This document shows, one piece after another, positions 15,061 through 64,000 of a stretch of DNA of 64,000 nucleotides (the first letter of the stretch is position 1; every line of letters starts with the position of its first letter). Below the pieces are notes generated by a model, which saw only the letters and a list, made by a program, of their open reading frames with translations, was not told the DNA's origin and made no database searches. The DNA comes from Cytospora piceicola (Eukaryota; Ascomycota; Sordariomycetes; Diaporthales; Cytosporaceae): NCBI GenBank assembly GCA_023375675.1, contig JALQBC010000082.1, positions 1 through 64,000 on the forward strand. The letters are read 5' to 3'. The translations under genes were made by a program, and so were the position numbers.

Positions 15061-15061
15061 A

Positions 15062-15857: not shown

Positions 15858-15895
<38 letters not shown>

Positions 15896-16135: not shown

Positions 16136-16171
<36 letters not shown>

Positions 16172-16270: not shown

Positions 16271-16332
<62 letters not shown>

Positions 16333-23022: not shown

Positions 23023-23029
23023 AGTTTTT

Positions 23030-23614: not shown

Positions 23615-23640
23615 GTATATATAATAATAAATTAAGTTAT

Positions 23641-24799: not shown

Positions 24800-24893
<94 letters not shown>

Positions 24894-34333: not shown

Positions 34334-37300
34334 ATAGATAGATAGATGGATGGATGTATTTAACCGCCGTAAGGCCGTAGGCCGGCGGCGCAGTACGACC
34401 GCTTAGGGGTTCCTATAGCCAGAAAACCTCCTTAAGGGTATATAGCGTAGCTACGTACGCTAGGCGCCCGGCTAAAAGCCGGCCCGAAATTAGGTATATA
34501 ATTATATTTAAATAGTAAGGTAGAAGTCGTTATAGTAACCGGTAGAAATACCGATTATTATACGGTAAATACTTTAAAAAATAAAAACCCTTTTATCCCG
34601 TTCCGACTGTCTTTTTAATTTAGATCGTTTTAACGCTTAACTATTTCTTAAGCGTAAAACGCGAATATTATTTTAAACTTCGAACGCCTTATTTAATCGG
34701 GTATATTTGTAGTATAGCTTTATAACCTTACTAAAAAGTAAAAGAAATATTATAAAAATCTAGCGGATAGTTTTAAAAAAAGCTATTAAACTTAGTCGCT
34801 AGCTTTATAAAAGGCTATATATAAAAAAGAAAAAAACAGAATTAAAAAAAAGTAAAGTATATTAAAACAACTAATAAATAAAAACTACTATAAGGTTTAA
34901 AGGTTAACGTTATACTTTAAAGCGATAATAGTAATAGATATATATAAAAAAGAATAAACGTTCTGTTAAATTAATAAACTTTTTAAACTTTATATTAATC
35001 GAGAGATTAATACCGGTAATAACTAAAAGTATAAGCTTCGGTTTAAGCCGAAAAGGGATATAAGAATACTAAAAAATATATCCGGGGGTTTTTAAACGAC
35101 TATAGCTATAAACTAAAAAGGTATTATAGTAGTAAAAACGTTTATAATACTTTTTAAAGTCGTTATAGCCTATTCGTACTATTAAAAGATATCGAAAAAC
35201 TTATTTAAGTATATTTAGTTTTAAAAGGTAGCTAATTTTAGCTGTAAAGCTAAAAGATAAGTACTATAAAGGTATATAAGTAAACTACTACCTTTAAAAA
35301 TTAAAGTTAATATACTTTTGTATAATTCGGTAAACTGCTAATAATAACGTTTTTAAGTTAAACAGGAAAGGGCGTTAATACCTTTTATTTGCTAATCGGT
35401 CGGCTTTTTTATTTCCGGCTATATTTATATAGCTAGGACTTTAATAAGTAATAATGCTATTATATAGTTAAATAATTTATTAAAATAGTTAGAATTTAGC
35501 TTATAAAGACGTCGGTAACGTACCTTATAAGTAATATACGACTAAAAAGTTATCGATATAAACGTAAATACCGTTTACGTTAATAAAAAGATTTTAGATA
35601 TAGTAAGCCGTTTAAAAGCCTATAAAGGCTTTAGTTACTTTTATATTAAATACCTTAATATTATTAAAACAGCTATTAAAAGAGTAAAGTATCGATTTAT
35701 TATATTAAATAGTATATCCTTATCTTATCGCGCTAGTATTTTATTTAAACCTGTCTAAGTATATAATTAAGTTAAACTAAAGGACTAATTCGAGCTATAA
35801 TAAGTAATCTTTAATAGTAAACGCTTTATTAGACTATATAACCGAGATATACGATAAGCCTATAAAGCGACGAAAGATAAAGACCGGCCGAAAAAATTAT
35901 AGTAAAAAAGATATAGCTTTTTCGAAAGATATAAAAATATATCGGCGTATATTTTAAAAAAAGCGAGTATACTATATAACTAAAAGGTATATAATATTAA
36001 AGAAGCCGAGTCGAAAAGTAAAGCGATTTCGAGCTATAATAAAAAAGACGTTAAGGTATAAGATCCTTAATTCTTTATAAAATACTATCGTATATATTAT
36101 CTTTTAAACCGGAAGGATAATATAAAAGGTAAGACGAAAATAGTAATTAATCTTATTAATTATCCTACTTTTATTAAAAAGAATATAAACTGTAAGCCGG
36201 AACGCCGAAAGGTATTAATAACTAAAAAACTAAATTTTTAAGCTATAAAAAACTATAAGTTTTATATACGCTTATACCGCTTAACGGATAAAGCGCGACG
36301 GAAGGCTTTTCGTTATAGTATAAAAACCTTATAAATATCGAGAGATTATATAAGCTTTAACAGCTTAAGTATTTATATATATCCGAAAGGAAAAGGTACG
36401 ATTAAACTAAATATTTAGCTAACGTAAAGCCTTATTTAAACGTTTTTTATATCTTTTATAAAAGATAAAAAGGTATAAATTATTACGTTTACGTTATAAG
36501 AAATATATAACTTTAATTTTAACGTAATTAAAGTATATAGTATTCTCTTTACCTTAAGCTAAAAGTTTAGTAATCTTTATAATAATAGCCGCTATAGTTT
36601 ATTCGAGTAAGTTTTCGATAGAGAAAATAATATAGTCGTCGACGTAGCCGAAGTAATAATAAGGCTTTAAAAGCTAATAAATTAGCTTAATATAAAAAAG
36701 AAAAAGGATTAGCGATAGAAAAGAACCTTAAAAAAGGCTATATAACAGAAAAAAGTAGTCGGTCCGGACCTATTAAAGTCGTATATAAGTAAAGTAGTCG
36801 AAAAGAAAGGTAAATATAAGCTATATTAAAAATAAAGACTAGCCTTACTTTATAGCCGGAGTATAAACCGGTTATAAAAGATAAAGTTAAAAGCGTTTTA
36901 AATATCTAAAGTTATAAAAGTAATAACTTTATTAATAAATAGAGAAATTTTAACGTTATAAATTAACGTTATAATAAAGTTTATTATAAAGCGTTTAAGT
37001 AGCGTTTTAATTTAGTTAAAATAAATAACTTAATATATAAAAATTAAATATAAAAGGTAGTAAACGATAAGCTATTTAAAGTCTTTACTAAAGTATAAGA
37101 ATAAAGCGATAAGCTATTAAGCTTAAGTAAATAAAAGATTTCGTTTACTTAGTTTAAGAATTATAGCTACTTCCGCCGTTTTAAAAAAGGTAAAGAAATA
37201 ACTAAAGATAAAGTATTATTAGTATAAAGCTTATATAAGCTTATTAAAAAAGTTTTAAGCTAGCTTAAAAGACTATACTAAAATCTTATCGACGTTTAAA

Positions 37301-40300
37301 AACGTATCCTTAGTATATATAACGCTATTAGTAGCCTTATCGAAAGTAACTACTTCGTTTTAAGGAATAAATCGTTTAAGTATTAAAAGGATCTATAGGT
37401 TTATAATATCGTCTTCCGAGTTAAAGCGGTAAAGAATTATAACGTTTAAAGTATTTATTTTATTAATCTAAGTAATAAAAATTTCGTTTTTAACTATAAA
37501 CGGTAAAGGAGAAATAGTTAAATTAAGCTTTTACTAATTAATAATATAGTAAATATCTTTATAAAATCGGCTATTATCGATAAATAAGGTTACCTATTAT
37601 CGTTTAACTATACGAACTAAACGATAAAAAGCTTATTATATAATATATACGTTAAATATAAGTTAGTTATAGCCGAACTAATAGTAGTAAGTAAAAAGTT
37701 TATATTATTAAACGTTATAATTATCGTTTTACTAGCTAACGGTTTTACTTTTATTAGCTATAAAACAGCCGGCTATATAAAAAGAGTTAATAAGTAAAGT
37801 CTATAAAACGTTAACGAAATAGTTTAACGCGAGTAGCGAATCGTTAATATTTAAAAACGTAGCGATCTTTTATTTAATAAAAAGACAGAAACGCTCTTTT
37901 TTTTCTTTTATAAGTTTAATCCGGCCTTTAAAAGTAACGTTTAAAGTTAATAGTAAGAGTTTTATAATAACGGTAAAATAGTCGAAGCCGACGTTAAAGT
38001 ACTTTTCGATATTAGCTTCGACGTATAAGATATTAAAAAAAGCTAAGTTAAAAGTATTATTAAAGCTATTAGTAATAACGTTAAGCTTATTTAATAATAA
38101 AAGCTAGTAAGTATCGGTTTAGTCGGTAAAGAAAGTTTTAATACTAATAAAGGACTTATCGAGCTACTATTAATAGTAAATCGAGTTAAAATCGCCTGCT
38201 AAAAGGTAGTTATTAAAAAGAACTTAATAAAAAAGTACTTTAACTACTACCGAAAACTTAAAAGAAAAGTAAAGTATATTATATATATTAACGAAGGTAT
38301 AGCTATTTACTTTTACTTAATAAACGTTTTAAATCTAAACTAAAATAAGCTAGTTAAAAACTAAACCTTACCTATAACGAATATATATTATAACTTAAGG
38401 TTTAATATCTACGTTTAACTAATTAAAAATAGAAAGAAATAAATTAAATCTAAAGTAAGTTTTCGTATAGTATTTACCGTTCCGAAGAATTATTATCTAA
38501 AGTTTTTAAAGTATAATAATATTAGCTTTATTAGCTTAAGTAAATTATAAAGTAGTATTATATATAGCCTTATCTTATATATTATAATTAATATTAAGTT
38601 AAAAAACTCGGCTAAAGTAAAAAGTACGTTATTAAGAAAATCGTCGAAGTATACTAATTATAAGTTAAAGTATTAAAAGTAAAGTTATAAAAGTTACTGA
38701 AAACGGCTTAAATATTAATTTCTATATCGAAAGGTTAATTATCGGTTAAAACTCCGGTAGTATTAAAATCTAATCGATAGTCTTAAAAGCTCGGTTAATA
38801 CCGGAAAAGCCGATATAGAAACGTTATAACGTTAATAAGTACTAACGCGGTCGTTAAAGCGGCGAAAGTAATAGCGGTAATAACAGAAAAGGGATTTAAA
38901 GCGAAGAAAGCCTTTTCTCTTTCTCTCCGGATATACTTATATTATTCTTTAATAAGTCGGCTAGTATATTTATTCTCGTAGTAAGGCTTAACTAAGTAAA
39001 CAACGGTATCGGTAATATAAAGCCTTTTATAGTTTATATACTAAATAAGTCGATAGTATAAAATAGTATATACTATAATATCGGAATACTAGCTATAAAA
39101 TATATAATGTTTAATATAAGTATACTTATAGGTTTTATAAAATTCTTAATAGTTTATATATTAGCTTAAGCGGAATTTCCGCTTAATAAAGCGATTAAGC
39201 CGGCTTTAGCCGAAAAAATAAAATTAGTATATAATCGGCTTAATAAAAAAAACTATCTAAATAATAAAAGCTTAATACTTTTTAATAAAGCGAAACAGGT
39301 AATAAGCTATTAAAAACTATCTTATTTATGTTAAAACTTCGTTATAAATAGTAATAAGTATATCGAAAAGCTTCCTTTTTTAATTATAAAGCTAAGTTAA
39401 AATATCGGATAAAGTGTAAATATATTAAGTAATACTACGTTTAATTATAATATAGTTAAAAAGTACTATTAATTTTTATCGGTAAAAGAAAAAAGAATTT
39501 TATATAAGCTTATTATAAAACCGAATAGTTTAGTTTAAATATATTTAATTAACGTTAAAAAAATCTATAAACAGGATTTTTAAAGTCGTATAAATAAGAG
39601 TTCGGAATATATAAGACTTATATCTTTAAAAAGGCGAAGTTAAGTTTAAACGTAAAAAAATATATAGATTATCTAGATAAAAAAGAAGGTTATAAGTTTT
39701 AAACTAATCGGTTTTTAAATAGCTAGTAAATTAAATAAAGGTAAACGACTAAATAAACGTAGTTATTACTACTATTACGTATAACGTAATAGTAAAGTTT
39801 ATTATAAAGTTTTTTTTATATAAAAAGAAATATATTTCTAATAAAACGTTAAAAGTTAAGCTTAGTCTTTTATCGAAAAATAAGGTTAAAAAAATATAAT
39901 ATTTAACGTAAAAGTTTTAAATAGTTATAAGCTAAATACTCGAAATAAACTATCGTAAAATATTATTTAAAGTAATAAAAAAGGTAAGATAAACTTTATT
40001 TCGTACTTAAAATATAGTAGCGTTTTATATAAAAAGCTTAATAAAGCTTAATATAAAACACGATATATAAAACGCGAATAGATTATTAAGTAGTTTCTTT
40101 TAAAACGACGACGATAGCAGTTCGTACGACTATATAACGCGACGTCTTTTACTACTCGAGACGGTTTAAAAACCGTTAGTATTAAAAAGGAATACTTCGC
40201 GGGTATATATCGAGGTTTAAAGGGTAATAAGGCCCGGCGGTAATAGCAGAGCTATCGTCGTAATACCGTTGTAAAGACAGGTGTCGAAGTACAGGTGTTA

Positions 40301-44237: not shown

Positions 44238-44608
44238 TAGTGCACGAGAGCGCTTACTGTGACAAAACCCCTTTTTCCTTAATACGTATACTCCTTCCCG
44301 AGAATTTAGCCCTTTTATACACTTAAACAGTATTAAGGACTAACAGAATTAATTAAATATTAAATTAACAATGTTAAGTTAATTTAAGTTTAATTAATTT
44401 AAGTTTAATTAATTTAAGTTTAATTAATTTAAGTTTAATTAATTAAGTTAAGTTAATTAATCGATCGAGGCTAAGGTTAAGGTCTTAACTAGGTTAAAGT
44501 AATTAAAATGTCTTTAAACGGCTTTACAGATTTATATATATAGCGTGCACGGCGGTGTACGTTTTTTGGAAAAATGGGTTTTGTCACAGTAAGCGCTCTT
44601 ACGCACTA
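44238..44608. mobile_element. MITE with ~34-bp terminal inverted repeats and TA target duplication
   Basis: The left end TAGTGCACGAGAGCGCTTAC and the right end (inverted) TAGTGCGTAAGAGCGCTTAC match over more than 30 bp and continue TGTGACAAAACCC...TTTTTCC. Both are flanked by TA (44236-44237 and 44609-44610). This fits a non-autonomous Tc1/mariner-type element. The interior is AT-rich and contains about four tandem units of TTTAATTAATTTAAG (44385-44450). The inverted repeats are nearly RIP-free, unlike the interior. Confidence 0.8.
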
Positions 44609-44785
44609 TAGCCGTGGCAACTCGACTTCCGGACTCGAACTAGCCTAACTATAATCGTAGTCGTGGTCGTGACCGTGCCTATCCTGATAAGTCGCAACAA
44701 GCTCCTGCTTAAATTACTGGCTATCCTATTGCCGGACGGCTCGTTTCTTTCATTCTATCTTATACATGTCGATAGCCTGTCTGAT
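44609..44785. other. Short GC-normal remnant between two mobile elements
   Basis: About 175 bp of normal composition, presumably once continuous with 44225, now left between the MITE and composite element G. No gene is readable. Confidence 0.6.
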
Positions 44786-45372
44786 TGCCTTCTGTTAAGA
44801 AGGTTGTTGTTTGTTTTCTAAGGCGGGCGAGCATATAGAAATTATTGCCCTTAAGATTTAATCCTACTTGTTTTTAATTCTGATCTGCTCTGAATTATAA
44901 TTATACTGATTCGCTATAGTACTTGTTTCTTAAATTTAATTAGCTGCTAAAAGTAGTATTTTTAGCTATCGAACGGCTAAGAAAATTAGAGATTATAAGG
45001 CCTTTTAATGCCTGCCGGAAGATTTATAGTTACTTTAAGGCCTACGATAAGGCCGGCCGCTTACAGAAGACCTTAAGACCTTAAGACCTTAAGTTCGAAC
45101 TAAGATGCACGCTTAAGTTTTAATCCGATTAAATAAAACTTACTTAAATTTAAATTTTTAGAAAAAGAGCTAGTAATTAGTATATTTAATCAAATCGTAG
45201 CTTTTAAGATAGGCTTACTATTAAAGCTAATAGCTTTAATTCTTTAAGTTCTTAAGGTTCTTAACCCGAACCTTAACCTCTTCTTCTATTTCCTCTCTAC
45301 TAAAGGCTTATATAAGCCTTTAGATTAAAACTAAGTAAGTAAGTTAGATAGTAAGTTAGCTAGTAAGTTAGC

Positions 45373-45943
45373 TGTTACACACCGCTTAAGACCTTATGTA
45401 AGCAGTGTAGAGAGTAGGTTCTCTATATAAAAACAGCTGCAAATAAGGCCTTAGACCTACTTAGGCTACCTTACCTTTTAGCGTAATAGCTAGATCCTGT
45501 TATTATCTTATAATAAGTAGTAGCTATAATTATACTATTGCTAAATCGTAAGGTTATAAGTTCGAGTCTCTTTTCTTTACCTATATTAATTTTAATAGTT
45601 CTGCTTTATAATAATATAAGTAGAAACCTTCTTTAGAAATCTATCGAAATCGAAAGTACCTTAACTAAGTACTTCTATTAATAATATATTCTTCGGTATA
45701 TAAAATAGGTAATATAGCTAAGTACCTTTAAGTACTATTAGTTAAAGGCGTATAATATAGATTTTATAAATAAAGAATATCTTTTCTGTAGTAGTATATT
45801 TATTATATACTGCTTAAGACCTTATATAAGCAGTGTAGAGAGTAGGTTCTCTATATAAAAACAGCTGTAAATAAGGCCTTAAACCTACTTAAGCTACCTT
45901 ACCTTTTAACGTAATAGCTAGATCCCGTTATTATCTTATAATA
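45373..45943 (+). mobile_element. TRIM-like miniature LTR element (571 bp)
   Basis: Two direct repeats of exactly 143 bp (45373-45515 and 45801-45943) flank 285 bp of unique sequence, bordered by TTAGC on both sides (45368-45372 and 45944-45948). The 5' repeat starts TGTTACACACCGC; the 3' repeat has TATTATATACTGC at the same place, differing only by C-to-T or G-to-A changes. This implies canonical TGTTA...TAACA LTR ends partly erased by RIP. No gag or pol is encoded. The interior holds a tRNA-like T-arm sequence (GTTCGAGTCTC near 45561-45571). Confidence 0.8.
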
Positions 45944-46228
45944 TTAGCTAGTAAGTTAGCTAGTAAGTTAGCTAGTTAGCTTTTAAGTAAATAAGTAAGT
46001 AAGTAAATAAGTAAGTTAACTAATAAATACTTAAGTTAAAAGTTAGTAAGTAAGTAACTAGATAAGTAAGTAAATAAGTTAAATAATAAATAAGTTAAAC
46101 TATAAATTAGTTAATTAATAAATAAATAAGTATTTTACTACTTAAAGCTATAGAAAATACAATAAAGTAACTTTTAAAAGGCGTTACTTTATTATATTTA
46201 AAATAGCTTAAGTAGTATATCTAGTTAT

Positions 46229-46365
46229 TATTATAAAATAATAAATCTAGCTATTACGTTAAAAGATAAGGTAGCTTAAGTAGGTTTAAAGCTTTATTTA
46301 CAGTTGTTTATATAAAGAACCTACTTTCTATACTGCTTATATAAGGTTTTAAGCAGTATATAATA
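46229..46365 (-). mobile_element. Solo LTR of the same TRIM family
   Basis: A 137-bp sequence in reverse orientation matches the 143-bp LTRs end to end (starting TATTATATACTGC and ending ...TATAATA on the minus strand). It is flanked by a perfect 5-bp duplication GTTAT (46224-46228 and 46366-46370), inside the 3' block of copy G. Solo LTRs arise by recombination between the LTRs of a full element, which supports the TRIM reading. Confidence 0.8.
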
Positions 46366-46434
46366 GTTATTAAGTTTTCGATCTTTTTTAATAAAAGGCC
46401 TTCTCGGTAGGCGGTCTTACTGCTATTCTTTAGT

Positions 46435-47140
46435 TTCTTTTAAAAAGCACCTTATATATATTAGCTTAAAACTTAAACTATTATTTTAGTTAAAAAGCAT
46501 TTTATAATATAATAAAAAACTAGATATTTATAATATTATAAAGTCTTTTAAAGTTTATAATACCTTTTAAGTTTCTTTTAATATAAATATATTTTATAAT
46601 ACTTTATAATATATTATTAACGTATATAAAGTTAGTTAGCTATTAAATAACTATAAGTAGTTTTATAATAAATCTACTTATAAATATAGTATTATAGCTT
46701 AACTTAAAGAATAATAACAGCTATTAAAAGGTATAACTATTACTAGGTAATATATAATTACAGTATAGATAGCATTTATTTTCTTTAATAACGCTTAAGA
46801 TAACTTAGTTTTACTAGCTAAAACTACTTAATATACCTTCTATTTCTCTAAATATCTTCTCTATCCTTTCTAAGTAGCTTAAATGATACTTGCTTTAAGT
46901 ACTTACCAGATCCTTAAGTATAGGCCAGCCCTTTATAAGTAACTGTAACTAAAAGTGTAACCTAGAACTAGAACTAGAACTAGAACCGGTAATAGTTTTA
47001 AGTGAATCAGGACGATATAAAGAAGCCTTAGCTGAATACTTACTATATGTAAGCTGACTAACTAACCTCGAGGAAGAGGGTAATAGAAATATATATACGT
47101 ATGGGAATATGATTATCAATTAGCTAACTCGCCTGCCTTT
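46435..47140. other. AT-rich spacer before the F-box/ankyrin gene
   Basis: RIP-like composition to about 46900, then mixed composition with three GAACTA units (CTAGAACTAGAACTAGAACT) around 46963-46982. No gene or known element is recognised. Confidence 0.55.
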
Positions 47141-47240
47141 GTACTTATTCGGACTTCTCGAGTGTTACGCCGTTGTAGGCGAGGACACGAACATACACCT
47201 CATGATGAAACCAAGAGGTGTGAAGGGTATTCCCATCTTC

Positions 47241-49376
47241 TCAAATCAACAACGACCCCCCAACCGAGACCAGCTCGGCAGCCAGGTCGGAGTTCTCGTA
47301 AGCCAGGGCCAGGAGCACAGTCGATGTTGAGCGCAGCCCGTCCTCGGCCTCGGCCTCGTCATATTGTTCCGCCTCTACAAGCGCAGACAGGGCCCCGTCC
47401 AGATCTCGCTGTAGCAGGTCGAGGTGCTTGCAATGGAATGCCTCCTCCACCCTTACGGCGCGCCGGAATTTTGCAGCCGTTACCGCTGTGGTCTCCTGTG
47501 ACGTGTCGCCATTGTGACTGTCGTCATCATCATCATTGGTGTCTTGTTCTTCGTCTTCTTCCTGGCAAGGCGGGCGTCCGAGAAGAGAGAGCGCGTCCCA
47601 GTAGCGTATCTGGTGGCGTCGCAGAAAGGCCGCTGGGGCATGGCGCCAAGGGCTGGTGAGGCACGGCCTTGTGATGGCACGAGGAGGCGGGAGTGATCTG
47701 ACACAAGCAGAAGAAGCAGTGAGTCCATCCTGTGCCGCTTTGCCCCGATTCTGCTGTCCTTCTTCTTCCTCTTTTCCTCGTCTTTGTTTCTGTTTGGTTT
47801 CCTCCTCCACCACCACCACCACCTTCTCAGTCTCACGGGCCCTTGCAGAGATCTCGCGTTGGCCGTCTTGGATATATCGCAGGTATTCGATGATGGTAGC
47901 GCTGCCTGGGTTGGGATCTGCACCCAGTGACACGAGGGCTCGCATGAGGCGTCGGTGGTCCGGGGTGGCGGTGGGTTGTAGCTGCTCGTGAGGAGGCCCC
48001 ATGTTGATAAGTGATGATGGTGTTGGTGTTGGTATTGTTGCCTCTGCCGATGACGGGCTGGGCCGTTGCGTCGACAGGGAAATGTAGTGGAGCGCAAAGC
48101 GGCCTTCCCCATCGGGCCAGTCCCAGAAGACACGGTTCCGCCGCCGCGGCCGCCATGCCTCGTCTCTGTCCTTCTCCTCCTCCTTGCACCACTCGACAAG
48201 CCACTCGGCCAGGTCCACCATATTGTTCGCGGCGATCATGTGCAGGGCAGTGACTCCAGCGGCAGCCGAGCTTGTCGGCGAGATGGGGACGGACCATGTA
48301 GCACCGGCGGCGATGAGTTGCCTCGCCACGGCGGAGTGGCGGTGGGCGACGGCAAGCATCAGCGGGGAGGCGTCGGGCCAATCGCCGCGGAGAGGATCCG
48401 AGACCATGCCAGGGGCGCGGCCGAGGCCCATGGCGGAGCGCACGAGGGCGGGCATATGGCGCGAAGGGCAGAGGCATGCCAGAGGAGCCGGGGCATCGAG
48501 GGCCTCCTGGACGTGTGGCAAAGTAAGTAGGTAGTGGTCTGTCGTGGTCGAAGCCGTTGTTGTGCATGTAGATGCGACGGTGCCAGGGAAGACGGATTGC
48601 AGAGGGGCAGGAAGGGGGTTCTGTCGGAAGAGGAGAGAGTTGGTGTTGTTGGCGTTGTTGGTGCTGTTGTTGTCCGGATCGAGAAGGCAGAGAAGCAGAG
48701 AGACGAGGTTAGCATGGCCGTTCTGGGAGGCTGTGTGGAGGGCGGTAGTAAAGACGGTCGAGAAGGCAGGCGGCAGCAAGTCTGGACGGGAATGGAGATG
48801 GAGGATGTCGCTGACGTCGGGCCAGAAGGAGGACCAGTGGGACACAGGACAGTTGGTAGTTATACGGAAGCGGGTGGTCAGGTAAGCCTGACGAACGTAT
48901 AACAGTGGCAGCGGCGGCGGCGACGACGACGTCGATAATGATGATGATGATGATGATACTGATGCTGAGGTAGCGAGGCCGGTAGCAGCGTCGGCGAGCC
49001 GCTGGACGAGGAGAACGTTGCCGGTCGCACAGGCAAGGAGGAGGTGGCAGCGGGGAGCTGGAGCTGGAGATGTCGACGTGGCCGGAGGAGGACGGGGAAG
49101 AGGGAGGAATGAGAGGTCGGCTGGGGTCACAGCACAGTCGTGCATATCGAGTAGGACGGCGGAACGGTCGAGGAAAGGTGTGGCGAGACGGTAGAGTTTC
49201 CTACACGAGAGGACAAGAGAGTACAGTGTGTAAATCACTGGTGCTGGTGCTGCCGGCGGCAGCATGTATCGGAGGATGGCCAAGAGCAGCTCTTCTGGGA
49301 GGTCACACAGGGAAGAAGGAGGAGGAGGAGGAGGAGGAGGAGAGGACATGGTGGCAGGTGATGTGAGCCGTTGCAT
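47241..49376 (-). CDS. F-box and ankyrin-repeat protein, 711 aa
   Basis: A single uninterrupted 711-codon frame. After a Pro run (residues ~12-19, encoded by a GGA-type microsatellite), residues ~22-75 form an F-box-like region (LCDLPEELLLAILRYML ... LVLSCRKLYRLATPFLDRSA). F-box proteins usually bind Skp1 in SCF ubiquitin ligases. Ankyrin-type segments follow: HLLLACATGNVLLVQRLADA, TALHTASQNGHANLVSLLL, SPLMLAVAHRHSAVARQLIA, VTALHMIAANNMVDLAEWLV, and near residue 470-500 RRLMRALVSLGADPNPG. The C-terminal end again looks ankyrin-like (LALAYENSDLAAELVSVGGS). A second Met at residue 10 could also be the start. A role in substrate recruitment is inferred from the architecture only. No lesions are seen, unlike the ankyrin relic at 2-3 kb. 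Confidence 0.85.
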   Translation of the reverse strand: MQRLTSPATMSSPPPPPPPPSSLCDLPEELLLAILRYMLPPAAPAPVIYTLYSLVLSCRKLYRLATPFLDRSAVLLDMHDCAVTPADLSFLPLPRPPPATSTSPAPAPRCHLLLACATGNVLLVQRLADAATGLATSASVSSSSSSLSTSSSPPPLPLLYVRQAYLTTRFRITTNCPVSHWSSFWPDVSDILHLHSRPDLLPPAFSTVFTTALHTASQNGHANLVSLLLCLLDPDNNSTNNANNTNSLLFRQNPLPAPLQSVFPGTVASTCTTTASTTTDHYLLTLPHVQEALDAPAPLACLCPSRHMPALVRSAMGLGRAPGMVSDPLRGDWPDASPLMLAVAHRHSAVARQLIAAGATWSVPISPTSSAAAGVTALHMIAANNMVDLAEWLVEWCKEEEKDRDEAWRPRRRNRVFWDWPDGEGRFALHYISLSTQRPSPSSAEATIPTPTPSSLINMGPPHEQLQPTATPDHRRLMRALVSLGADPNPGSATIIEYLRYIQDGQREISARARETEKVVVVVEEETKQKQRRGKEEEEGQQNRGKAAQDGLTASSACVRSLPPPRAITRPCLTSPWRHAPAAFLRRHQIRYWDALSLLGRPPCQEEDEEQDTNDDDDDSHNGDTSQETTAVTAAKFRRAVRVEEAFHCKHLDLLQRDLDGALSALVEAEQYDEAEAEDGLRSTSTVLLALAYENSDLAAELVSVGGSLLI

Positions 49377-50404
49377 CTCTAGTGTTTAATTCAGACTTTT
49401 GATGTCGCTGATGGTTATGGTTGTGGCGATGTTGCCGAGGGTGCGACAAGACGAGACGTGACGAGACGTGACGAGACGAGACCAGAAGGAAGGGTTGGAA
49501 AAGAAAGGAGGAGGAGTACGAGTGGGCCTTTTACTTGGGACGGTACTATCACGGTCACTGTTACGGTCACTGTTACGGTCACTGTCACTGTCACTACTCC
49601 GTTACCACTTCGTTACCGCTTCGTCACCGTTATCGTTACCGTTACCGTTTTCAAGCAACCACACACATGAAAAATGTACCTACATATACACCGCCTGCAC
49701 AATAAATTGTTGTCAGTCTGCTTGCAGTCAGAATATTAATCCAACCTTGGTGCCTACTTGTTTGCACATGAGCTGATTATCAAGTAAGTGAGTATGTATG
49801 TATGTATGTATGTATGTATGTATGTACCTAGGTATGTATGTATTCCACATCATCCACAGCACAGCACGCCGTCCCGCCCATGTATACTTAAGAACCTGGG
49901 CATGTACAATTGACAGTCCCGGAATATCCTGATTTGCTTCCGGAACACCTCTGAATAACCTGGAACTTCGCCGGAGAAACTATCCCGGTTGTGTGATTGG
50001 ACGAGGCGATTTGGAGAAGGAGGTAGCATGTACCTGACCTGGACAACACTCATAAACGGGCCGTCGCTGGTCGCTGACGGTCCGTCAGAATGCGTCCGTA
50101 CCTAAGTAGTTTTTTAGCATACTAGACAGTGACCAGGAAGGAAGGAACGAAGGTTTGGTCGAAGGAAAAAGAGAAAGAGCATGAGTAAGAGCAAAACCCG
50201 TGACCAAACCAAATTGATGTGTGAGCCCGCATTTCGTCCCAGTCTTCGTATGTTCGTTCGTATGTTCGTTCGTATGTTCGTATGCTCGTCTTCAGGTATA
50301 TTCGTCTTCAAGTGCATGCATCAACATCAACATCATCGTCACCCTCCTCGCCGTCCGTCCTTTGGTACCAGTACCAGTACCAGTACCACCAGACCGTCAC
50401 CAAG
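49377..50404. other. Divergent intergenic region between two intact genes
   Basis: Holds several tandem repeats: GAGACGTGAC-type units at 49451-49480, GTTACGGTCACT-type 12-mers at about 49550-49655, (TATG)n at 49793-49828, and TTCGTATG units at 50246-50282. It should contain the 5' regions of both flanking genes, which point away from each other. No further gene is recognised. Confidence 0.6.
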
Positions 50405-52831: not shown

Positions 52832-53082
52832 AAAAGTCGTGGACACGCTGAAAAGTCGTGGACACATTAAAAAGTCGTGGACACACTAAAAAGTCGTGGA
52901 CACACTAAAAAGTCGTGGACACACTAAAAAGTCGTGGACACACTAAAAAGTCGTGGACACGCTGAAAAGTCGTGGACACGCTGAAAAGTCGTAGACACGC
53001 TGAAAAGTCGTGGACACGCTGAAAAGTCGTGGACACACTAAAAGTCGTGGACACATTAAAAAGTCGTGGACACACTAAGTAT
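52832..53082. repeat. Minisatellite, ~18-bp unit AAAAGTCGTGGACACACT
   Basis: About 14 head-to-tail copies of AAAAGTCGTGGACACACT with variants CGCTG and ATTAA. It is the most homogeneous of the three related arrays (others at 3.7 and 9.1 kb). It ends about 230 bp before the virus-like block. The minus-strand 76-codon frame inside it is a repeat artefact. Confidence 0.92.
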
Positions 53083-53313
53083 ATATACCAGCCGCGACCC
53101 TCAGCCCTCCGTGTAAGAGGTGGATTAAGGTGCACACATACACCGCTAATATAAACTTAGCAGGCAGCTACGTTAACCTGTAAGGTACGCATAGGTTCTA
53201 AACCAGATGTCGGTTAAGAGTTCGGCGTTCATGCTTAAAACTACTACGAATACCCCTGGTACTTCAGCGCTACTAAGCAACGCTTTAACAACATCACAAA
53301 CAACAGGCGAACC

Positions 53314-54035
53314 ATGTCGATCAACTGTGTCAAGCAGACCATTACCAACGCCTGCGGGCACGTCTCGATATCCTTATACAAGGCCTGCAACAACCACCTC
53401 TTGAACAGCGAACAGTACGGCAAGTGCTACAGGCAAAGCGTGGACACTACAGAGGTGAGCATCTCAATCAGCATCGGGAACGACTTCTGTAACAGAGGGT
53501 GTGAGGCCATAATGCTGGGGTGAATGTGCTGCAAATGCGTGTTCAAGCACGCGAAAGGGTTCAAGAACTGCTACAAGGGCCTGGTAGTCGACGAGTGCAT
53601 CAACGGCGATATACACATGTTCTGCGACAGGTGCCTGACGAAGCACGAGGACGTGACGTGCGACAGCAACATGGATCTATCCGGGTTGGTCAAGAAGATC
53701 AACAAGGATGGCGGCATCATTGCCACCAGAGGTTGAGGTCCAGGACCACGATCATGCACATGTAGTTCTGACGCAGGCGCCGAGGATATCCACGAGCATA
53801 CGACGACCACCATGACCACCAGGGTCGAGGCCACAACCGACATCGTCTTGTGCATCATCGAGAATAACCTGATAGACTCGCTGGACCAGTTGAGCATCAA
53901 CACCGGGTCCATCAGGTCCATCTATTGTCCCGAACAAGTACAGTGAGTTGTACCTGTTCGAGCCAATCGTCGCATCCGCGAGGTGGTGACCAACTACAAC
54001 ATCGGCTGCATGTACCTGGTCATGGTTTTGATCGA
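53314..54035 (+). pseudogene. Cys-rich, possibly virus-derived reading frame with in-frame TGA codons
   Basis: The frame starting at ATG 53314 stays coding-like for 210 codons but contains TGA at 53521-53523 and 53734-53736, then ends at TGA 53944-53946. Coding character may continue in shifted frames to about 54035 (YNIGCMYLVMVLIES). The first part has spaced Cys/His (NACGHVSISLYKACNNH); the second opens MCCKCVFKHAKGFKNCY and has MFCDRCLTKHEDVTCD, a zinc-finger-like arrangement. The third is hydrophilic and ends with a helical segment (ENNLIDSLDQLSI). Codon style (C/G-ending codons, frequent ATA and AGG) resembles the adjoining polymerase relic, so a shared viral origin is inferred. It could instead be two or three short genes. 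No family is recognised. Confidence 0.5.
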
Positions 54036-54036
54036 G

Positions 54037-55850
54037 TCACGACCACATGCACATCAAACCTATACTAGCGGTCTTCACCTTCCTTCTGAACATCATGTCG
54101 CATGAGAACAGCAGAGGCTCGACGCTTCTCAAGTTCGCGGCCTCGAAGATGGTGGATATCGAGTTGGTCACTTTCTTTAAAACCCAAGACTTGTTGTCTA
54201 CATTGGTGACCGTTATCCCTAGGCCGACTATGACGCTGATGTAGTCCCCGCCCGCCGAGTTGTACTTGTAGTGAGGCTGGCAGTTGAACTTGGTCTCAAA
54301 CATCGTCATGGTCGGTGGGATCTTGCCGGTTGTCATGGATGACATGACTGCCCAAGAAGATCGTCACTGACCTCTTCTTAACCCCAATCGGATTGTTTTT
54401 GTTGATCATGGCCAAGACATTCTTCGTCACGTACTTCGCGATGGGGAGCGTGTCTCTCTTTACAGGCGACATCCCCATGGTCTCGACGATACCATCCGAA
54501 TCCACGGTCGAGTACTTCTTCTTGGTGGTGATCAGCATGTGTCCGTAGTTGCCCTTCATGTCGGCTTTCACGTTCACGAACGGGGTGTTCTTTATACTCT
54601 CGTCGATTAACGACTTCAACTTTCGACCCGTCTTGTCGCACGCCTCTTTAGTCTTGCCACCTACCCAGGAGAAGATCGAGTCTGTGTCGCCGTATACAAC
54701 CCTGTACCCGTTGGTCTCCGAGACTGATATCATGTTCTTGACGTGGAACCTAGCTGTACACGTGATGGCATCCGCGCACACCTTCGACGACAGGATGCTG
54801 TGTTTGCCCCCAGTCGCGCCGTCGACGCTGACCAAGAGGGTCTTATAGCACTGGCCCAAAATCGTCCATCGACGCCAATCGACGGTGTCGACCCCGTAAT
54901 TTGACGCGGTCGACCTGGCCTTCGACCTCAGGTCTATGAGCATACCGATCATCTCGCCCAGGAGGGTCTCTTCGCCCTGCAGCACGGATATATACGTGCG
55001 CTTGGTCTTTATCACGATGACGTCCGCATTTTACACGACACCACCTACATTAACTTCATGGACACTATCAGGCAGCGGCACGGAGGTCTTCCTGTACAAC
55101 CCCTTGAGCGTGGTGGAGGACACACACCTGTCCACGTAGATCTGCAGGGTTTTCACAAGAGACCTCTACAAGGACTTGCCGTCGAGCATAGCCACACCCT
55201 TGTAGCAGCCCGGGATCGGGGGTACCACAAACCTACCTTCGTACTTGGAGTTGTCGGTCACGGACGAGTTTCTGCTCAGGTCAAGGATCATATCTCTCTT
55301 TAAGCCCTCCGACTGCTGCAGACAGAGCATTATCACCGCGGTGTTGTTAACGATCGCGTCCCACATCGTGCTTCGTGCTACACCGGCGAGGGTGCACAGT
55401 CGCTCGCACATCAACATCTTCTTCGGTAGCTACACGTGCAAGTCAGAGTCCCTGGCGTTGTACTTGACGGTTTTCGTGACATCGGAGTCGTCCGACACGG
55501 GGACCGACATGGTACCGCTATCCATCCTCGGCGGTAGGTCGAGCTTCTCGGACATTTTGGCGAGGGCTAGCGAGGGCCAGTTGCTCGTGGGCTCCGTGTT
55601 GGTGGTGTACATCGAGTCTACGATCATGGTTCCGTTGTCCAACCGCCAGAAGATACCCACACTGGTGTTGCCCAACCTTCTTTCCGAGAACGTCGGTCTG
55701 ATCATCGGGTCCATTGCGCTGGACGCTGCCAAGCACGTGAGGTCGAATTTGAAGCCGTTGTGCGCGTTGACGAAGTCGGGACTCAACCTGTTGATGATGT
55801 CGTATCGATTGGCGCTGGTAACTTGGATTATATAAGGAGGCCATGTAGAG
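54037..55850 (-). pseudogene. Endogenous virus-like family B DNA polymerase, 5'-truncated and inactivated
   Basis: Read on the minus strand, most of the relic lies in one frame. In order there are: an exonuclease II-like block (NAHNGFKFDL, ~55742-55771); exonuclease III-like YNARDSD (~55444-55470); motif A (GCYKGVAMLDGKSL, Asp at 55181-55183); a fingers region with a diverged motif B (KTLLVSVDGATGG); an intact motif C YGDTDS (YGDTD at 54680-54694); and the KKKY thumb-side block (~54511-54529). In-frame stops are TAG 55430-55432, TAG 55166-55168 (at the usual Tyr of motif A), TAA 55031-55033 and TGA 54296-54298. Near 54340 the frame shifts and coding-like sequence continues to 54037. The N-terminus and exonuclease I are missing. 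YGDTDS with this layout is typical of RNA-primed polymerases of large dsDNA viruses (herpesvirus or NCLDV type). The exact virus group cannot be told by eye. Confidence 0.8.
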
Positions 55851-56090
55851 CCTCGAACCCTATCTTGCCTTACCTTACCTCGCATCTCCGTGTGTGCCAG
55901 ACTCTTACTCTTGGTTATCAGGACTCTACGCCGTCGTATACTCCGTATGCTAGCTATCCGTCCATCCCCCGTCCTCATCTTAATTGTTAAGGCACGCCCT
56001 TTGCTGATCATTCAGCGAAGCCCGTAGGTCCCGAGGCGCGAAACGTCGAAGGGGCCTGCGGGCGGAGCGTTCTTAATACCTTTAAAATCG
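55851..56090. other. Junction between the virus-like block and the AT-rich Helitron block
   Basis: Normal composition to about 56080, including CCTTACCTTACCT and a GC-rich segment (GTCCCGAGGCGCG ... GGGGCCTGCGGGCGG, 56025-56070). The composition then changes abruptly. No gene is recognised. The polymerase frame runs on to about 56011, but that part does not resemble a polymerase. Confidence 0.5.
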
Positions 56091-59000
56091 TGCCGTATAT
56101 TTCTCGAGTATAGATTAGTCGTAGATAAGATCGCTTAATATAGATTAGTTAGTTCGGTTTTTAAGTTTTTTTAATTAAAGGCTAAGTAATTTCTTTAATC
56201 TAACCGGTATATTAGCTAGTTACCTTAACCCTATAACCGGCTAATATATCGGTTATATTAGTAAATAATACTAAGTTATTTTTTTACTTTAATATATATA
56301 AGGCTATAAACACTGTAGGCTAAAACGTTATAAGTTAAAGTATTATAAGTTAGCGTTATAAGTAAAAGAGGTCTTAAAGTTTTTTTTTTTAAATAATCTA
56401 GGAAGTATTTAATAAATCCGATTAATTATATACCTTTAAAACTATATATTAAGCTTTAATAGCTATTATACTTAATAATTAAAACCGGTTTATTAACCGG
56501 TTATATAATAGTTTATATATATAATTATAATATTATAATTTTAATATTAAATCGTTATCGGTTATAAATAAATTCTAATTAATTAAAATAACCTTTTTTA
56601 TAATTACTTTCCTTTTTTAACTATAATATATAGTTTACTTTAACCTTATAATAACTACTACTTCTTTCCTTTTTTAAAACTATTAACTTAATTTAACTTA
56701 TAATAAATAATAATAAATAATAATAAATAATAATTAGAAAACTTTAAACTATTATAAACCTCGATTATAAATAATAAGTAATATAATTTTTTCTTTTTAC
56801 TAATAAAGAATTTAATTACTAATATAGTATTAATTCTTTAGCTTTTTTACTAGCTATTAGGTATTACGATTATAGTTTAAAGTTAAGCTAATCGATTAAT
56901 ATATCTGCTATTATAGTAAGGCCTTTATTCTCTTTTTTACTTAAAGGTAATAACCTTTTCCTTTTTTATTAGTAAAATATACTTTATAAGACTAAAATCG
57001 CTAATATATCGAAAAAGTATTATATATACGATAATATTTAAAGCTTTAATAAGTTTCGATTTAAACGTAGAAATAAGCTTACTTAAAACTACTTTTTTTA
57101 TTATAATAAACAGATTATAGAATAAGTTAGTTCTTTTTTATCTTATACGTTTCTTTTAATATTAATTTATTTATAAAGTAAACTATCGTTAGTTTATAAC
57201 GTTTTATTATTTATCTTTATTCGAAAGTAACCTGTTATTATAGCTTAGTTATTATTTTTAAAGCGATTTAACCCTTTTAAACGTTATTTCGATCCTTAAC
57301 TATAGCCTTTTTAACTATAAGTTTTATAGCCTTTAAGCCTTCTACCTTTTTAAATACCTTCTTTATAGCTTTAAAAGCTTTTTTAACTCTTTTTTATACC
57401 GCCTTTTACCGTTATTAACCTTACTTTATTATAGTATACTACTATTAGACGAGGTTATAATTATAATATACTTTCTTAAGCTATTAGTATACGCTAGCTT
57501 TTATCTTATAATATATTGATACCGATATAGCCTCTGTTCTTTTAACCTTTATAGCTTTTATAACTTTTTAGTTTTAATATAATATAACGCTTAAAAGGTA
57601 TATTTTATTATACTTAAAACCCTGATAATATTTATATTAAATAATAAGCCTGTCTTTATTATAAAGCTATTTAGCGAAAGTATTATATCGAGTGTCGTTA
57701 TAGTAAAGTTATTAACCTTACTCTTTTACTTTAAGCTTTCTTTATTTAATAGTAGCCTTTTTTTAATTTATAGCATTCTCTTATAAGCTTATAATTTACG
57801 TTAAGCTTATAATTTATTATAAGTAGCGGAGATAACGGAAATAAGCCTTTTTTTTAACTATACGATATATCGAGTTTTATACTATACTTATCTTCGATAA
57901 TAATAAAACCTTAACATTTATATTTACTACTTTAGTAAAGATAACCTTTAAAATAAAACAACCTTATATATTTATTAGTAATATCTAAGAAAGCTTATAC
58001 TAGATTATTTTTAAGTCGGTAAAAATCGTTTAATCTTTTACTATAACTATCGTTATAATATCGATATCGGCAATAACGATAAAAGCTTCTTATAAAATAG
58101 TTAGCTTTCTTTTAGCTTTTAGCCTTTTTAGTCTTACTATAGCTTTTACGCTAATATTACGTATAGCCGTTAACGTTATAATCTTTTAGTTATATTTAGC
58201 TTTTATTTATAAAATGTTTTAAATATAGCCGATATATTAACTTAAAGTAACTTATAGTAGAATAGTTAGTTAGTTAAACCTTATATTGTAAATAAAGAAA
58301 AACAGCTACTATAAAACTTTTAAAATCGTTTAAGAAAAGAATCTGTTTATAACTACTATTTTAAATATAATTATAAGTAGTTTAATCTAAATATTACCTA
58401 AAGTATTTACTTAACGTATTATTACCGAAATAATAAAAAACAGCTAAATAACCCGGATTTCTTTTTAGCTAAAAATTAGCTTAACTTAAACGATGTCTTT
58501 ATCGACCTTCCTTTACCTATATAATATAAAAAGCAGCTTTTCGCTTAAATCTATATTTTTATTAATATTCGTTTTATTTATAAGTAGTAGTTTAAGTATT
58601 TTAAATATTATATAAGCTTCTTTTATAATATAAGCTCTCTGTTTAACTAGTTACCTTACCTTTTACAGAATATTAATATAATAGTATTACGCTTTAAAAG
58701 TATATAAAATAATACCTATACTATTCGGTTTTTAAAAAGAAGTTAAAAGTTTAACGTTATATAATTAAAAAGTAGCTTTACTACCTTTAAAAGTATTATC
58801 TTAACTATTAGAATATTTAAATCGATTATAAACGTCTTTTTTCATTTTTTAAAGATAGTAATATAACTAATTAAATTACTATTATAAACGTTAATAACGT
58901 TATAATATAGCTTAACTAGCCTTAGGTTAAAAGCCTTAATAAAAAAGTCTTTAAAAACGTTATTATAGCTTTTAACCTTATTACGGCGTATGTTAATCTA

Positions 59001-59900
59001 TATAGACTTCGTACTTAAGTTATAAGTACTTAACTGCTTACTATTAACCTCGATATTATTTAGCCTATTTAAAACTATATCGAGTTACCCGGAATTAGAT
59101 TTACGCTTTTTAACGATTTTAACTCGAAATTAGCTTTTATTAATTTAGCTATACCGTCTTTAATATCTTAAAGGTAAAGTAAGTTTAGTCTTCTTCGTTT
59201 TTATACCTATAATTAAATTATATAGGTAAGATATACTTTCTTTTAATATAATAGTCGATTTATAAGGTATAAATGCTTTCTTTTTATCGTTTTTAATACT
59301 TATATAAGGGCTTAAGTTAATAAAAAGAGTAACTTCTTTATTAACCGTTTTAATAGATAATTCTGTAATAAGCTTTAAACTATCGATAAGCTTCGAAAAG
59401 CTTTAAAGGGCGATACTCTTAAAGCTTAGTTTATTTTAGCCTTAATCGTTAAGTCTACTAATACCCTTAAAAACACTCGTCTTTTTTTAAGTTAAGCTTA
59501 AAATAAATTATAATCGATATATTATATTCTTAAGTACTCTTATATTTTTTTAACCTTTTTTATAGCTAATAACTATTAAGAATCTCTAGCTTATATTATA
59601 CTTAACTATTAGTAATAGCTAGCTTTTAATAATAATAGTAAGATAGCTATTATTAAAAAGAACTTTAAAGAAAACCTTTTAATCGCTGCTTAATACTTTT
59701 ATACTTTATTCTATATATTCTTCGAAGAGTACTTAATATTAAAGCTTAAGGTTATAGCTTATTAGTATCGGGTTAAGTAATAAGGTTATAATAGCACTTA
59801 TACTTACGGTATATTTTAGCTAAATAAGCCTTTTACGGCTTTTAATAAAAGCTTTTAAGATAAAGTCTTTAAAAAAGGAATTTATTAATTTTTAAGGTAT
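56091..59900. other. RIP-saturated AT-rich DNA, probably the 5' part of the Helitron or other elements
   Basis: CpA/TpG are nearly absent and stops occur in all frames. No motif could be assigned. Because it has the same composition as the Helitron relic that follows, it may hold that element's N-terminal coding region, but a separate element is equally possible. Confidence 0.45.
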
Positions 59901-62720
59901 ATATATAAGCGTATAAAACCTTAAGCTTAGTCGTTAGCCTTAACTTTAAGAAAATAACCTTTTAAAGTCTACCTTTAATAACGATATCTTATTTAACCTT
60001 TTATTTTACGTTTTTAACTATATATAGAAGTATTACTATATCGAGATATACTATTTTCGTTATTATAAAATAAACGATAGTTATATATTTAAAAATAAGG
60101 TTTATCGATTTTACTTTAAACGTTTAATCTATAAGGTTAAGACTATACTTATAAAGTATATTAATAAGTACCGGAACTTTTTATAAAAGGTTTTTAACGG
60201 TATTCGTAATAATAGTTATATAAATAACTATATCCGAGGTATTATACTTAGCTAGCTAGCTAATATTAATATAGCCCTTTATACCTCTTTCCGAGCTGTT
60301 ATTAACTATATTTTAAAATATTACTTTAAAGCCGAGATAAAGACTTAGACTTATTACGAGATAATATTTAAAATATTTTTAAAGGTTAGTTATATAAAGC
60401 TTATAGTATCTTTAATAAGTAAGATAATAAATAAGCTACTATTTAAACGAGATTAGCCTACTATAAAGGTAGCTTATTACCTTTTCGGTATCTTTTTAGT
60501 TAAGTTTAGTTACGTTTTTTAACGTATTAATTATCTTTACTTTAATTAGTAGTAAGCTAAAACCGTTATTAATATTAAAACTAATAAGGTTCGGCAGATT
60601 TGTTTTATTTAGTAAAAATACTATAAGCGTTTTTAAGGCGAGTAAAATAATCTTACTTACTTTAATATACTTACTTCTATTAACTATAAGAAGGAAGGTT
60701 ATTAATCCTTTTTTAGTTTTTAAACGAAGCCTTATATACTTAACTACTTCCTTTAGTATAAGCTTAAGCGTTAAAGTAATTAGTTTAAAGACTTTTATCG
60801 TATAAAGCTTATACTTTATTACTTTTATTATAGCTTTAAAGATCTTAAAACGGTTAAAATAGCTATTTTAATACCTTTACCGAAGTATACGATTATTATC
60901 TCGAGGTTTATATTAAAACTTATAAGTTTAACTATTATAAGAATATACTTTCCGAGCCTGTTAATAACAGTTTTAAAAAGAACCCGGAAGTAAAGTAAGA
61001 GTTTATTATTTAAGCTAACTAAAAGGCTTTTATAGCTTAGGTTTTTAATTATAACCTTAATACCGAAGATATTAATCTGTTAGGTAACCGTGAAATCGAC
61101 TTAGCTTATAATTAAACCCTTTATATCGGTAGGTATTATTACCTTTTATTTTAACGTTAGATATTTTAAAAAGGTTTACGTTTAAGTTAAATTTAAAATA
61201 AAGACAATTTTTCCGAAAAGGCTATTAATACCCTTAATATTAAACAGCGCTTACTATATAATATTATCGTAGACTATTAGAAGTCTATTCTCGAAAGTAA
61301 GTATAACGCTAAGGCTTAAAGCCCTTTTTAGCTTCTACTTTAAGTTAATAGCCTTAAAAGTATTAAAAAGTTATATACTTTAAAGGTTATTACGTTTTAG
61401 ATTCGTCGTGTCTTTATAAACTACGGTATCTAAGGTTTTATTTTTAAGGTTTATACCTTTACCGGCGTAACTACTAATACTATAAAAGGCTAAACTATCT
61501 ATAACCTTTTTTATATTCTTTATACGTCGATAGATAAACTTCCGGCCTTTACAGTAAGTAAAGCTATTAATATTCGTAATACTTTATATTAAGTACGATA
61601 TATTATTGTAAATAAAAAGTTTATAATCGGCTATCGTATATTATAGTATATAGATAGCCGTTTCCGGAGTATTTTTAAAGCTTTTAACGGCTTTTTTAGT
61701 AATTATAATATTATCTTAATAAGTAATTTCTATTAGCTGCCTCTTATATAGCAGATACCTCTTTTTACTTATAAGTTTAAGATTAACGATATTATAAGTA
61801 AGGCTAGATATACTATATATATTTAGTTTATAAAAACTATTCGCTTAATTTAGGTTATACGATAGTAAGGTAATAATTAAGCTTTTTTCTATAAGGTTTT
61901 TAAAGCTTTAAAGAATAATTTATTTACTTATATTTATTAATAATTACTAGCTACTTAAGTTTAGTTTACTTTACCTTTAAATAAAGTTTAAGTATTTAAT
62001 AGCGTTCTTCGACTATATAGTACTAACGCCGTTATAAAAGAGTATAATACGTCTTACCTCGAATACTTAGACTTTCTTATTATTAATGTTTAAGCTAATA
62101 ATTAAGGTACCGGAGCTGTTTCTATTAAGTTTAAAGATACTAGTAATTTTTATAATCGTTTTTCCTTATATTATAAAAGTTATATAATATTAACCGAAAA
62201 CCTTTAAGTAAAGGCTAGTATAGTTAATAACGTAACAGGCTATATCTATAATATTATATAAGTACCTAATATCGATTCTAACGATATTTATAAAACGATA
62301 CCGTTTATTATTTTAATAAAAATAGATAACTATTTTAGCCCTTTTTACTTTTTAAACGAAGACAATATCTTTAATAATATCGTATTTATCTTCTTATTAT
62401 TTAAAGAGTTTAATAAAGGTACTGCTATATACTTATAAACTTAATTCCCTTTAACGATCGCTTACGCTATTACTATTTATAAGTTATAAGGTTAAACTTT
62501 CGAGTAAGCTATACTTAATATTTTAAGCTGTAACTTTACTTTTAGCTTTACTTACGTTATAGTATTTTACGTTAAGACCTTAGCCGGCTTTATATTTAAT
62601 ATACCTTTCTCTTTTTCTAATATACTTATTAGAAAAGATAAGACTAGCCTTTAAAAGGCTTATAATTATTAACGTTACGTTATTATAAGTAAGGTAATAA
62701 ACTAAATAAGTATTTAAAGG
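59900..62720 (+). pseudogene. RIP-inactivated Helitron transposase (Rep-linked region and Pif1-like helicase)
   Basis: Despite many stops, plus-strand frame pieces match the fungal Helitron protein in order. At about 60310-60500 are LKYYFKAEIKT and VSLISKIINKLLFKRD, equivalents of the conserved block after the Rep domain (KYASKAE ... VSKxxNKL ... ERDW). The Walker A site is at 61359-61373, changed from Gly-Thr-Gly-Lys-Ser to Ser-Ile-Lys-Lys-Leu by RIP-type transitions. Next come TGVTTNTIKG (motif Ia) at about 61470 and the Asp-Glu-Lys-Ser site at 61608-61622, now Asn-Lys-Lys-Phe. A QLPP-equivalent lies near 61735, and the final helicase block PLTIAYAITIYKL is at 62449-62487. Helitrons move by rolling-circle replication. 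The termini were not found. Identification rests on motif order. Confidence 0.75.
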
Positions 62721-64000
62721 ATATAATTAAAAAGAGGTAGTTTAGCTTAAACGTAAACGTTCTTAATTAAATAGTTAGTATTATTATTAAGTTAGTTTAT
62801 AAATAAGGTTATTAATAGTATAGAATTAAAATTATATATATAATATTACTACTACTGTTATAAATTTAGCTTATAATTATATATATATTATTAACTTAAT
62901 AGGTATTAAATATATATTACTATAGTAATTTATATAATAACGCGTTACTATAATAATATAACCGATTACCGAACCGGTTATATTAACTATATAAGTACTA
63001 TATCTTACAGTTTTACCTTTCTTAATAATAATATATATTATAGTTAACATTTTTTTCTCTCTTTTAATATATATAATATATTCTCTTTAAGTTTATATTA
63101 CTAATATAATTTAAATTAATTAATTAATTAATTAATTAATTATATCTTTTATCGCCCCTTCCGTAACCTTTAATATTACTACCTTTTTTAATACCTTTTT
63201 AAACCGTTAGTTTTATTAAACGTTAAATAAAGTCTTTACTAAGTTTCGATAACCGGCCTATTAACCGGTTATAAAGGCCCCGGTTATATTAAGGTCTGTT
63301 TAAAAGGTTATTAAAGTAAAGTACTTAAAGTTAGTTATAAGATTTCCGGGTAACCGTCGTTTAACGAATTATAAAGTTAAGTAATTAGTAAGTATTATAG
63401 TTTTCTTTATTACGTTTATATATTAATATTTTAATAGCTTAACCTGCCGGCTATAAATACAATCGTTTACAACCTTCGTTAAAACTCCTGCTTTCGCTTT
63501 TAAAATATAAGTAATAAACGAAGTATCTGTTAAGTTAAAAACCTTGTTACCTTACTTACTTAAATTATAGGTATTTACGTTCCCAGTTTATACCGGCGGT
63601 ATATAAAAAGTAATAGTCTCTTTATTAAATACTATACTAACTTAAAAAGGTAAATAGTTTAAAGATTAAGTCTTATATTAATAATATTTATACTAACTAT
63701 ATATATTAAAAAGAGGCTTAATATTATCGGTAGCTTACTTTTTTTCTTATTACTTTATAGTTTAACCTATTATAGGTTATATAGTAGGTTACTCTTATTT
63801 AGTAAGTAGTTCTTACTTAGCCGGTTACTTTTACTTAGCTAGTTATTCTTTAATAAGCACCTCTTACGCCTTTTCCTCCTACCGACTTTATAGTAAATAA
63901 GAAAGGTAAAAACAAAGATATTTAAGGTAATAATAATAGGATATTTATAGATAAATTTAACGTAGTAAGTAATGTTATTATTAGACTACTATTAGCTTTA
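62721..64000. other. AT-rich RIP block continuing past the Helitron relic
   Basis: Same composition to the window end. An (ATTA)n-like run lies at 63115-63141, and ACCGG/CCGGT words recur (about 62960-62990 and 63250-63290) as they do near 56200-56240, which may mark related ends. No coding signal could be read. Confidence 0.5.

Follow-up and report, generated by a model that had tools for sequence, protein, structure and literature searches.

The window analysed here is a stretch of 64,000 nucleotides from the ascomycete Cytospora piceicola (contig JALQBC010000082.1, 65319 bases in all), and it carries on its minus strand, at 54079-55861, a broken family B DNA polymerase (PolB) relic that is dead and now functionless. 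The relic is probably a 5'-truncated chromosomal copy of the replicative polymerase of a fungal DNA virus, or a virus-like element, that is still undescribed. The original prediction had placed such a relic at 54037..55850 and had read it as an integration of herpesvirus or nucleocytoplasmic large DNA virus (NCLDV) type; the observation stands, the herpesvirus or NCLDV reading is not supported, and the lineage behind the relic is the real find.

Position, Motifs, and Decay of the Relic

The relic was confirmed by a match of 54299-55030 (minus strand) to the Pfam family DNA_pol_B (PF00136), with an E value of 2.5e-21 and above the 23-bit cut-off. Alignment with tblastn placed residues 434-946 of the intact relative P0008 at 55861-54350 with 72% identity over 513 residues, and residues 948-1036 at 54348-54079 with 57% identity; the latter segment aligned likewise to the C termini of P0009, P0012, P0018, and P0041. 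Residues 1-433 of P0008, comprising a NADAR domain, the N-terminal domain, and Exo I, have no counterpart in the relic and none elsewhere in the assembly either, except for a separate NADAR gene on contig C79. The N terminus is therefore missing as predicted, with Exo I and everything upstream of Exo I absent. The features of the relic are as follows, relatives being the near-full-length proteins described in the next section.

54079-55861, minus strand: family B DNA polymerase relic, from the latter half of the exonuclease domain through palm, fingers, and thumb to the C terminus (tblastn with P0008; PF00136)
55739-55777, minus strand: Exo II motif (DFVNAHNGFKFDL), matched in 36/36 near-full-length relatives
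55433-55462, minus strand: Exo III motif (YNARDSDLHV), with YN..D kept in 36/36 relatives
55169-55189, minus strand: motif A (MLDGKSL) as far as a stop codon, with the catalytic Asp; Asp and SLY kept in 36/36 relatives
54677-54694, minus strand: motif C (YGDTDS), intact, kept in 36/36 relatives
54512-54523, minus strand: KKKY motif (motif reading)
55031-55432, minus strand: span with three in-frame stops (55430-55432, 55166-55168, 55031-55033), two TAG and one TAA
54037-54363, minus strand: C-terminal part in another frame, with its own stop at 54037-54039 (frame change near 54350)

All of the motifs claimed for the minus strand (two Exo motifs, motif A, YGDTDS, and KKKY) could thus be located, and they follow one another in the order Exo II, Exo III, motif A, motif C, KKKY. 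As for the predicted decay, the late change of frame near 54350 held up, whereas only three of the four reported stops are in frame, the fourth, at 54298, lying past the frame change. Three stops in 504 codons is a low count, since none of 1000 dinucleotide-preserving shuffles gave as few in any of the six frames. The relic is, as had been proposed, not saturated by repeat-induced point mutation (RIP), with a (CA+TG)/(AC+GT) index of 0.92 in 54040-56010 versus 0.09 in 56100-64000, and it is single-copy in the 43.6 Mb genome.

A Clade of Related Fungal Polymerases

With the relic piece alone as query, five other protein fragments were retrieved, among them fragments from Xylaria cf. heliscus and Exophiala xenobiotica. 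A wider length range gave nine rows, consisting of seven near-full-length relatives (58-76% identity) and two distant prokaryote-type enzymes; the seven include proteins of Hirsutella rhossiliensis (P0007), Fusarium albosuccineum (P0010), Conoideocrella luteorostrata (P0013), and a Circinaria calcarea metagenome-assembled genome. A profile of these seven relatives, scored against the 7993 candidates sharing most words, returned at least 39 rows, including the seven themselves and one distant enzyme, 28 proteins of 782-815 residues with Saxophila tyrrhenica among their sources, partial proteins of Macrophomina phaseolina and Hortaea werneckii, and P0046, a protein of 1678 residues from the chytrid Clydaea vesicula. 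The ten named members of the clade are all fungi, and relatives also come from environmental samples. The relic is no unique case, as relatives occur in at least nine named ascomycetes or lichens besides the window host and in one chytrid. The closest known proteins are those of this clade, such as P0007, P0010, P0013, P0008, and P0009, and in the trees P0007 and P0008 are the neighbours of the window piece. Unlike its relatives, the piece is a broken copy from which NADAR, the N-terminal part, and Exo I are missing.

The 36 near-full-length proteins that were aligned (the partial P0044 and P0045 being left out) all keep the DIE of Exo I, Exo II, Exo III, the Asp of motif A, YGDTDS, and a KKxY-type motif, which argues that selection maintains the family outside the relics. 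Motif A has an unusual SLYG instead of SLYP in 30/36 relatives, with SLYP in five and SLYA in one, and the usual NSxYG of motif B is kept in only 4/36. Judged by its sequences, the family is divergent but bears the marks of working enzymes.

Phylogeny and Fold

The clade was supported at 100/100 in two trees and sits on a long stem, with the window piece inside it in both. In these trees, built without herpes-, pox-, asfar-, nima-, and mirusvirus and Pol epsilon sequences, the clade stood apart from cellular Pol alpha, delta, and zeta and from prokaryotic, phage, and NCLDV-like polymerases. The sole NCLDV-like sequences, whose label is inferred, were the IMG/VR polymerases L118 and L119, and they grouped with host Pol delta. 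The relic is distinct from the host's own Pol delta (C36), zeta (C57), and alpha (C7) and also from a further PolB (C38). The trees bear out the earlier claim that it derives from none of the first three. That claim had extended to the protein-primed polymerases of plasmids and Polintons, and here too it agreed with our results: PF03175, the protein-primed PolB family, was matched neither by four relic pieces at E up to 1 nor by P0007-P0013 at E up to 0.5, and P0020 reached 24.9 bits, below the cut-off of 25.8.

A high-confidence structure model for the family, with a predicted local distance difference test (pLDDT) score of 88, has the full replicative PolB fold. Among the matches listed, structures of phage, archaeal, herpesvirus, Pol alpha, asfarvirus, and Pol epsilon enzymes resemble this fold to about the same degree, and protein-primed families are absent from the 50 structure matches listed. 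The best BFVD matches listed were a mixture of phages, NCLDV, a hytrosavirus, a herpesvirus, and baculoviruses, none of them well ahead. The best PHROG match was PHROG 262, the bacteriophage family B polymerases, with E values from 1.4e-8 for a relic piece to 4.9e-32 for relatives, and the phage loci L121, L123, and L125 were nearest to the clade in one tree (88.8/91). In tblastn comparisons with phage records, the best identity was about 25% among the 20 listed of 296, and no record covered 80% of the query. The link between clade and phages may be an artefact of long branches.

NADAR Domain and Rpb2-like Part

An N-terminal NADAR domain exceeded the Pfam cut-off in three of the seven close relatives (P0008, P0009, and P0013), and none of the 31 rows P0016-P0046 lists one. 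Our search of the Cytospora genome for NADAR returned one host-like open frame on C79, which was the only strong match, and a weak match on C24; the host protein is 35-36% identical to P0008 and P0009, or 45% over a shorter stretch by another alignment. P0009 found only the window, the C79 NADAR gene, and cellular polymerases in that genome. Viruses too carry NADAR and, according to a survey of viral NADAR proteins (PMC9503650), the domain usually forms a protein by itself unless it is part of an RNA-virus polyprotein, whereas three of the seven close relatives here have it fused to a DNA polymerase. In one subclade NADAR precedes the polymerase. During a conflict with the host it may take away ADP-ribose marks or signals, or have related nucleotides as its substrates.

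In P0046 the polymerase continues into an Rpb2-like RNA polymerase part, which scored 46.9 bits against PF00562 and matched archaeal Rpo2 with an E value of 6.7e-10; the PolB part matched poxvirus-type and Sulfolobus enzymes about equally. The Rpb2-like part hints at a capacity for self-transcription, unless P0046 is a gene-model fusion. Rpb2 domain 6 had three matches in the Cytospora genome, as many as host Pol I, II, and III should account for.

Source of the Relic

The family comprises 43 rows, 32 of them full-length, and for 18 of the 32 the longest contig measures 22-33 kb, for 14 it is shorter, and for none is it longer. P0013, which is gapped and lies on a 48.6 kb contig, was set aside by hand, and counting it would give one longer contig in 33; the long P0046, on a 21.5 kb contig, was not counted as full-length. 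Contigs above 33 kb (up to 1.08 Mb) carry five of the 43 rows, from Hirsutella, Xylaria, Exophiala, Conoideocrella, and one more source, and all five are fragments (292, 224, and 152 residues) or gapped (P0007 and P0013). Related proteins also lie on contigs of like size, namely P0020 and P0021 (24748 and 24423 bases) and P0042 and P0043 (27100 and 27162 bases). With 18 of the 32 full-length copies on 22-33 kb contigs and fragmented or gapped ones on longer contigs, the pattern suggests that the source is a free replicon of approximately 24-32 kb that has left dead copies in chromosomes. Together with the separate clade formed by the fungal relatives, these intact copies lend substance to the earlier pointer to an undescribed lineage.

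The intact element would be a free replicon of approximately 24-32 kb whose DNA is replicated by its own proofreading family B enzyme, an enzyme with complete exonuclease and palm, no protein-priming signature, and apparently no use of protein priming. A fragment of the element's DNA may have been joined into the Cytospora chromosome, captured by break repair, after which the copy would have decayed through point mutations and a change of frame. The copy now ends next to a transposon-like repeat, which RIP has silenced in its turn. We tentatively propose, with the scales tipped slightly the other way, that the source belongs to an undescribed lineage of double-stranded DNA (dsDNA) viruses of approximately 24-32 kb that infect ascomycetes and chytrids and would be packaged in virions. 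Such a lineage would have its own deeply divergent polymerase and one branch with an anti-defence NADAR fusion, and the integrations in several fungal genomes would be its fossil record.

Several points weigh against a free viral source. The contig sizes are those of the longest contig per protein cluster and lack a control set, short contigs are common in metagenomes in any case, and the relatives are known here from proteins and longest-contig sizes. Only one gene in the window is certain, and the first structure model, that of the NADAR form, reached a pLDDT of 34. Scans of IMG/VR and GTDB contigs with a few exact peptides of the family or of P0046 recovered no member; this is odd for a virus, although so few exact peptides make a narrow probe.

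Yeast cytoplasmic virus-like elements (killer plasmids) are small free DNA elements with their own protein-primed PolB. The source of the relic could, with somewhat lower probability than a virus, be a comparable capsid-less plasmid, linear or circular, but with another kind of polymerase. Contigs of 22-33 kb would fit such a plasmid equally well, and the polymerase and Rpb2-like part of P0046 are what one expects of a cytoplasmic self-transcribing element. The likeness to the yeast elements would cover the small free DNA form, a self-encoded PolB, and the RNA polymerase part that one chytrid relative has. Against this, the yeast elements are protein-primed and PF03175 is unmatched here, even P0020 falling short of its cut-off, and P0046, only about 25% identical, is possibly a gene-model fusion.

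An origin from a chromosomal mobile element with its own polymerase, Polinton-like or another giant transposon, appears improbable. Relics do lie in long chromosomal contigs of several fungi, as this origin would have it, but the Cytospora copy is single in its genome, the enzyme is not of the PF03175 type, and no full-length copy among the 32 is on a contig above 33 kb. Still more doubtful is an integrated virus of herpesvirus or NCLDV type. P0046 matched poxvirus-type polymerases in the PDB with an E value of about 1e-14 (one labelled F8, which we take to denote a poxvirus), and herpesvirus and asfarvirus structures aligned over 696 and 689 residues. Few such viruses were sampled, and a deep link to one of the viral groups outside the trees is conceivable, but neither trees nor fold bear the affinity out: the relatives form a clade of their own, L118 and L119 join Pol delta, and the fold shows no preference.

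Assembly contamination is very unlikely: the contig is short, but it carries a RIP-mutated repeat and a minisatellite type that are both found on other contigs, and the copy shows the decay that a fossil in a chromosome should have. That the relic is a pseudogene of some cellular family B polymerase, for which the shared superfamily might speak, can be dismissed with near certainty, as the host polymerases are separate and the clade falls outside them at 100/100 in trees that held Pol alpha, delta, and zeta.

Relation to Known Systems

Fossils of dsDNA viruses in fungi were reportedly described by Gong et al. in 2020. According to a 2023 report (PMC10640383), fungi had no known dsDNA viruses, the exception being endogenous giant-virus regions in early-diverging lineages. 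The 1.5 Mb region of Rhizophagus irregularis described there, one of the endogenous NCLDV regions, resembles our case in that a viral-type PolB is fixed in a fungal chromosome. It stems, however, from an asfarvirus-related giant virus in an early-diverging fungus, whereas the PolB here belongs to a different clade, its hosts are ascomycetes, and the source genome probably measures approximately 24-32 kb. The string 'fung' is absent from the main text of a survey of PolB groups (PMC7544198), and searches of the open-licence PMC literature, preprints aside, turned up no description of the clade.

Chromosomal fossils, together with intact polymerases whose contigs share a narrow upper size limit, point to a widespread class of fungal DNA replicons, which can now be sought directly in public assemblies and cultures. 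The fusion of NADAR with a polymerase offers a way to test for ADP-ribose-based conflict between fungi and DNA parasites. If the replicons are indeed small dsDNA viruses, they would give higher fungi their first known DNA-virus lineage that encodes a polymerase.

Surroundings of the Relic

The relic has host-type sequence on both sides and is decayed, as is characteristic of an endogenous element. Three features adjoin it.

53239-54099, plus strand: possible decayed convergent gene with cysteine-rich pieces, a putative neighbour gene of the element (stop count versus shuffles)
55862-56009, no strand: stretch of about 150 bases, with no recognised homology, that separates the relic from the repeat (alignment ends)
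56010-57620, no strand: RIP-mutated repeat to the right of the relic, its left end common with the copies on C52 and C74 (alignments)

The plus-strand stretch has three stops in 287 codons, a count as low in 12 of 1000 shuffles, and the shorter stretch 53239-53946 is not significant by itself (77/1000 shuffles). Its product gave no Pfam family over the cut-off and no PDB match better than E 0.99, and in the genome the piece matched itself only. From its reading frame, it is perhaps a decayed convergent gene that neighboured the polymerase in the element.

The repeat aligned at 87% over 1614 columns with C52 and at 83% over 279 columns with C74, both alignments beginning at 56010. The copy on C74 sits in a stretch of normal G+C content, and by its base composition it looks much less mutated. 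To the left, a 19-base minisatellite (unit around AAGTCGTGGACAC) occupies 52832-53081 and recurs at 3717-3859 of the window, and related arrays (71-80%) occur on C83, C67, C42, C74, C66, C55, and C70. Because this type is found on seven other contigs and at 3717-3859, we set aside the array as a part of the insert and treated it as host sequence, although exact matches to the pattern lie in the window alone (12/12), which speaks against that assignment.

Further left, at 47244-49385 and a few kilobases from the relic, an open frame encodes 714 residues that include ankyrin repeats and give a weak match of F-box type. The window as a whole holds four A+T-rich blocks of 23-29% G+C with strong RIP indices (14200-25400, 34600-40100, 44600-47200, and 56100-64000), separated by gene-like blocks of approximately 50-55% G+C.
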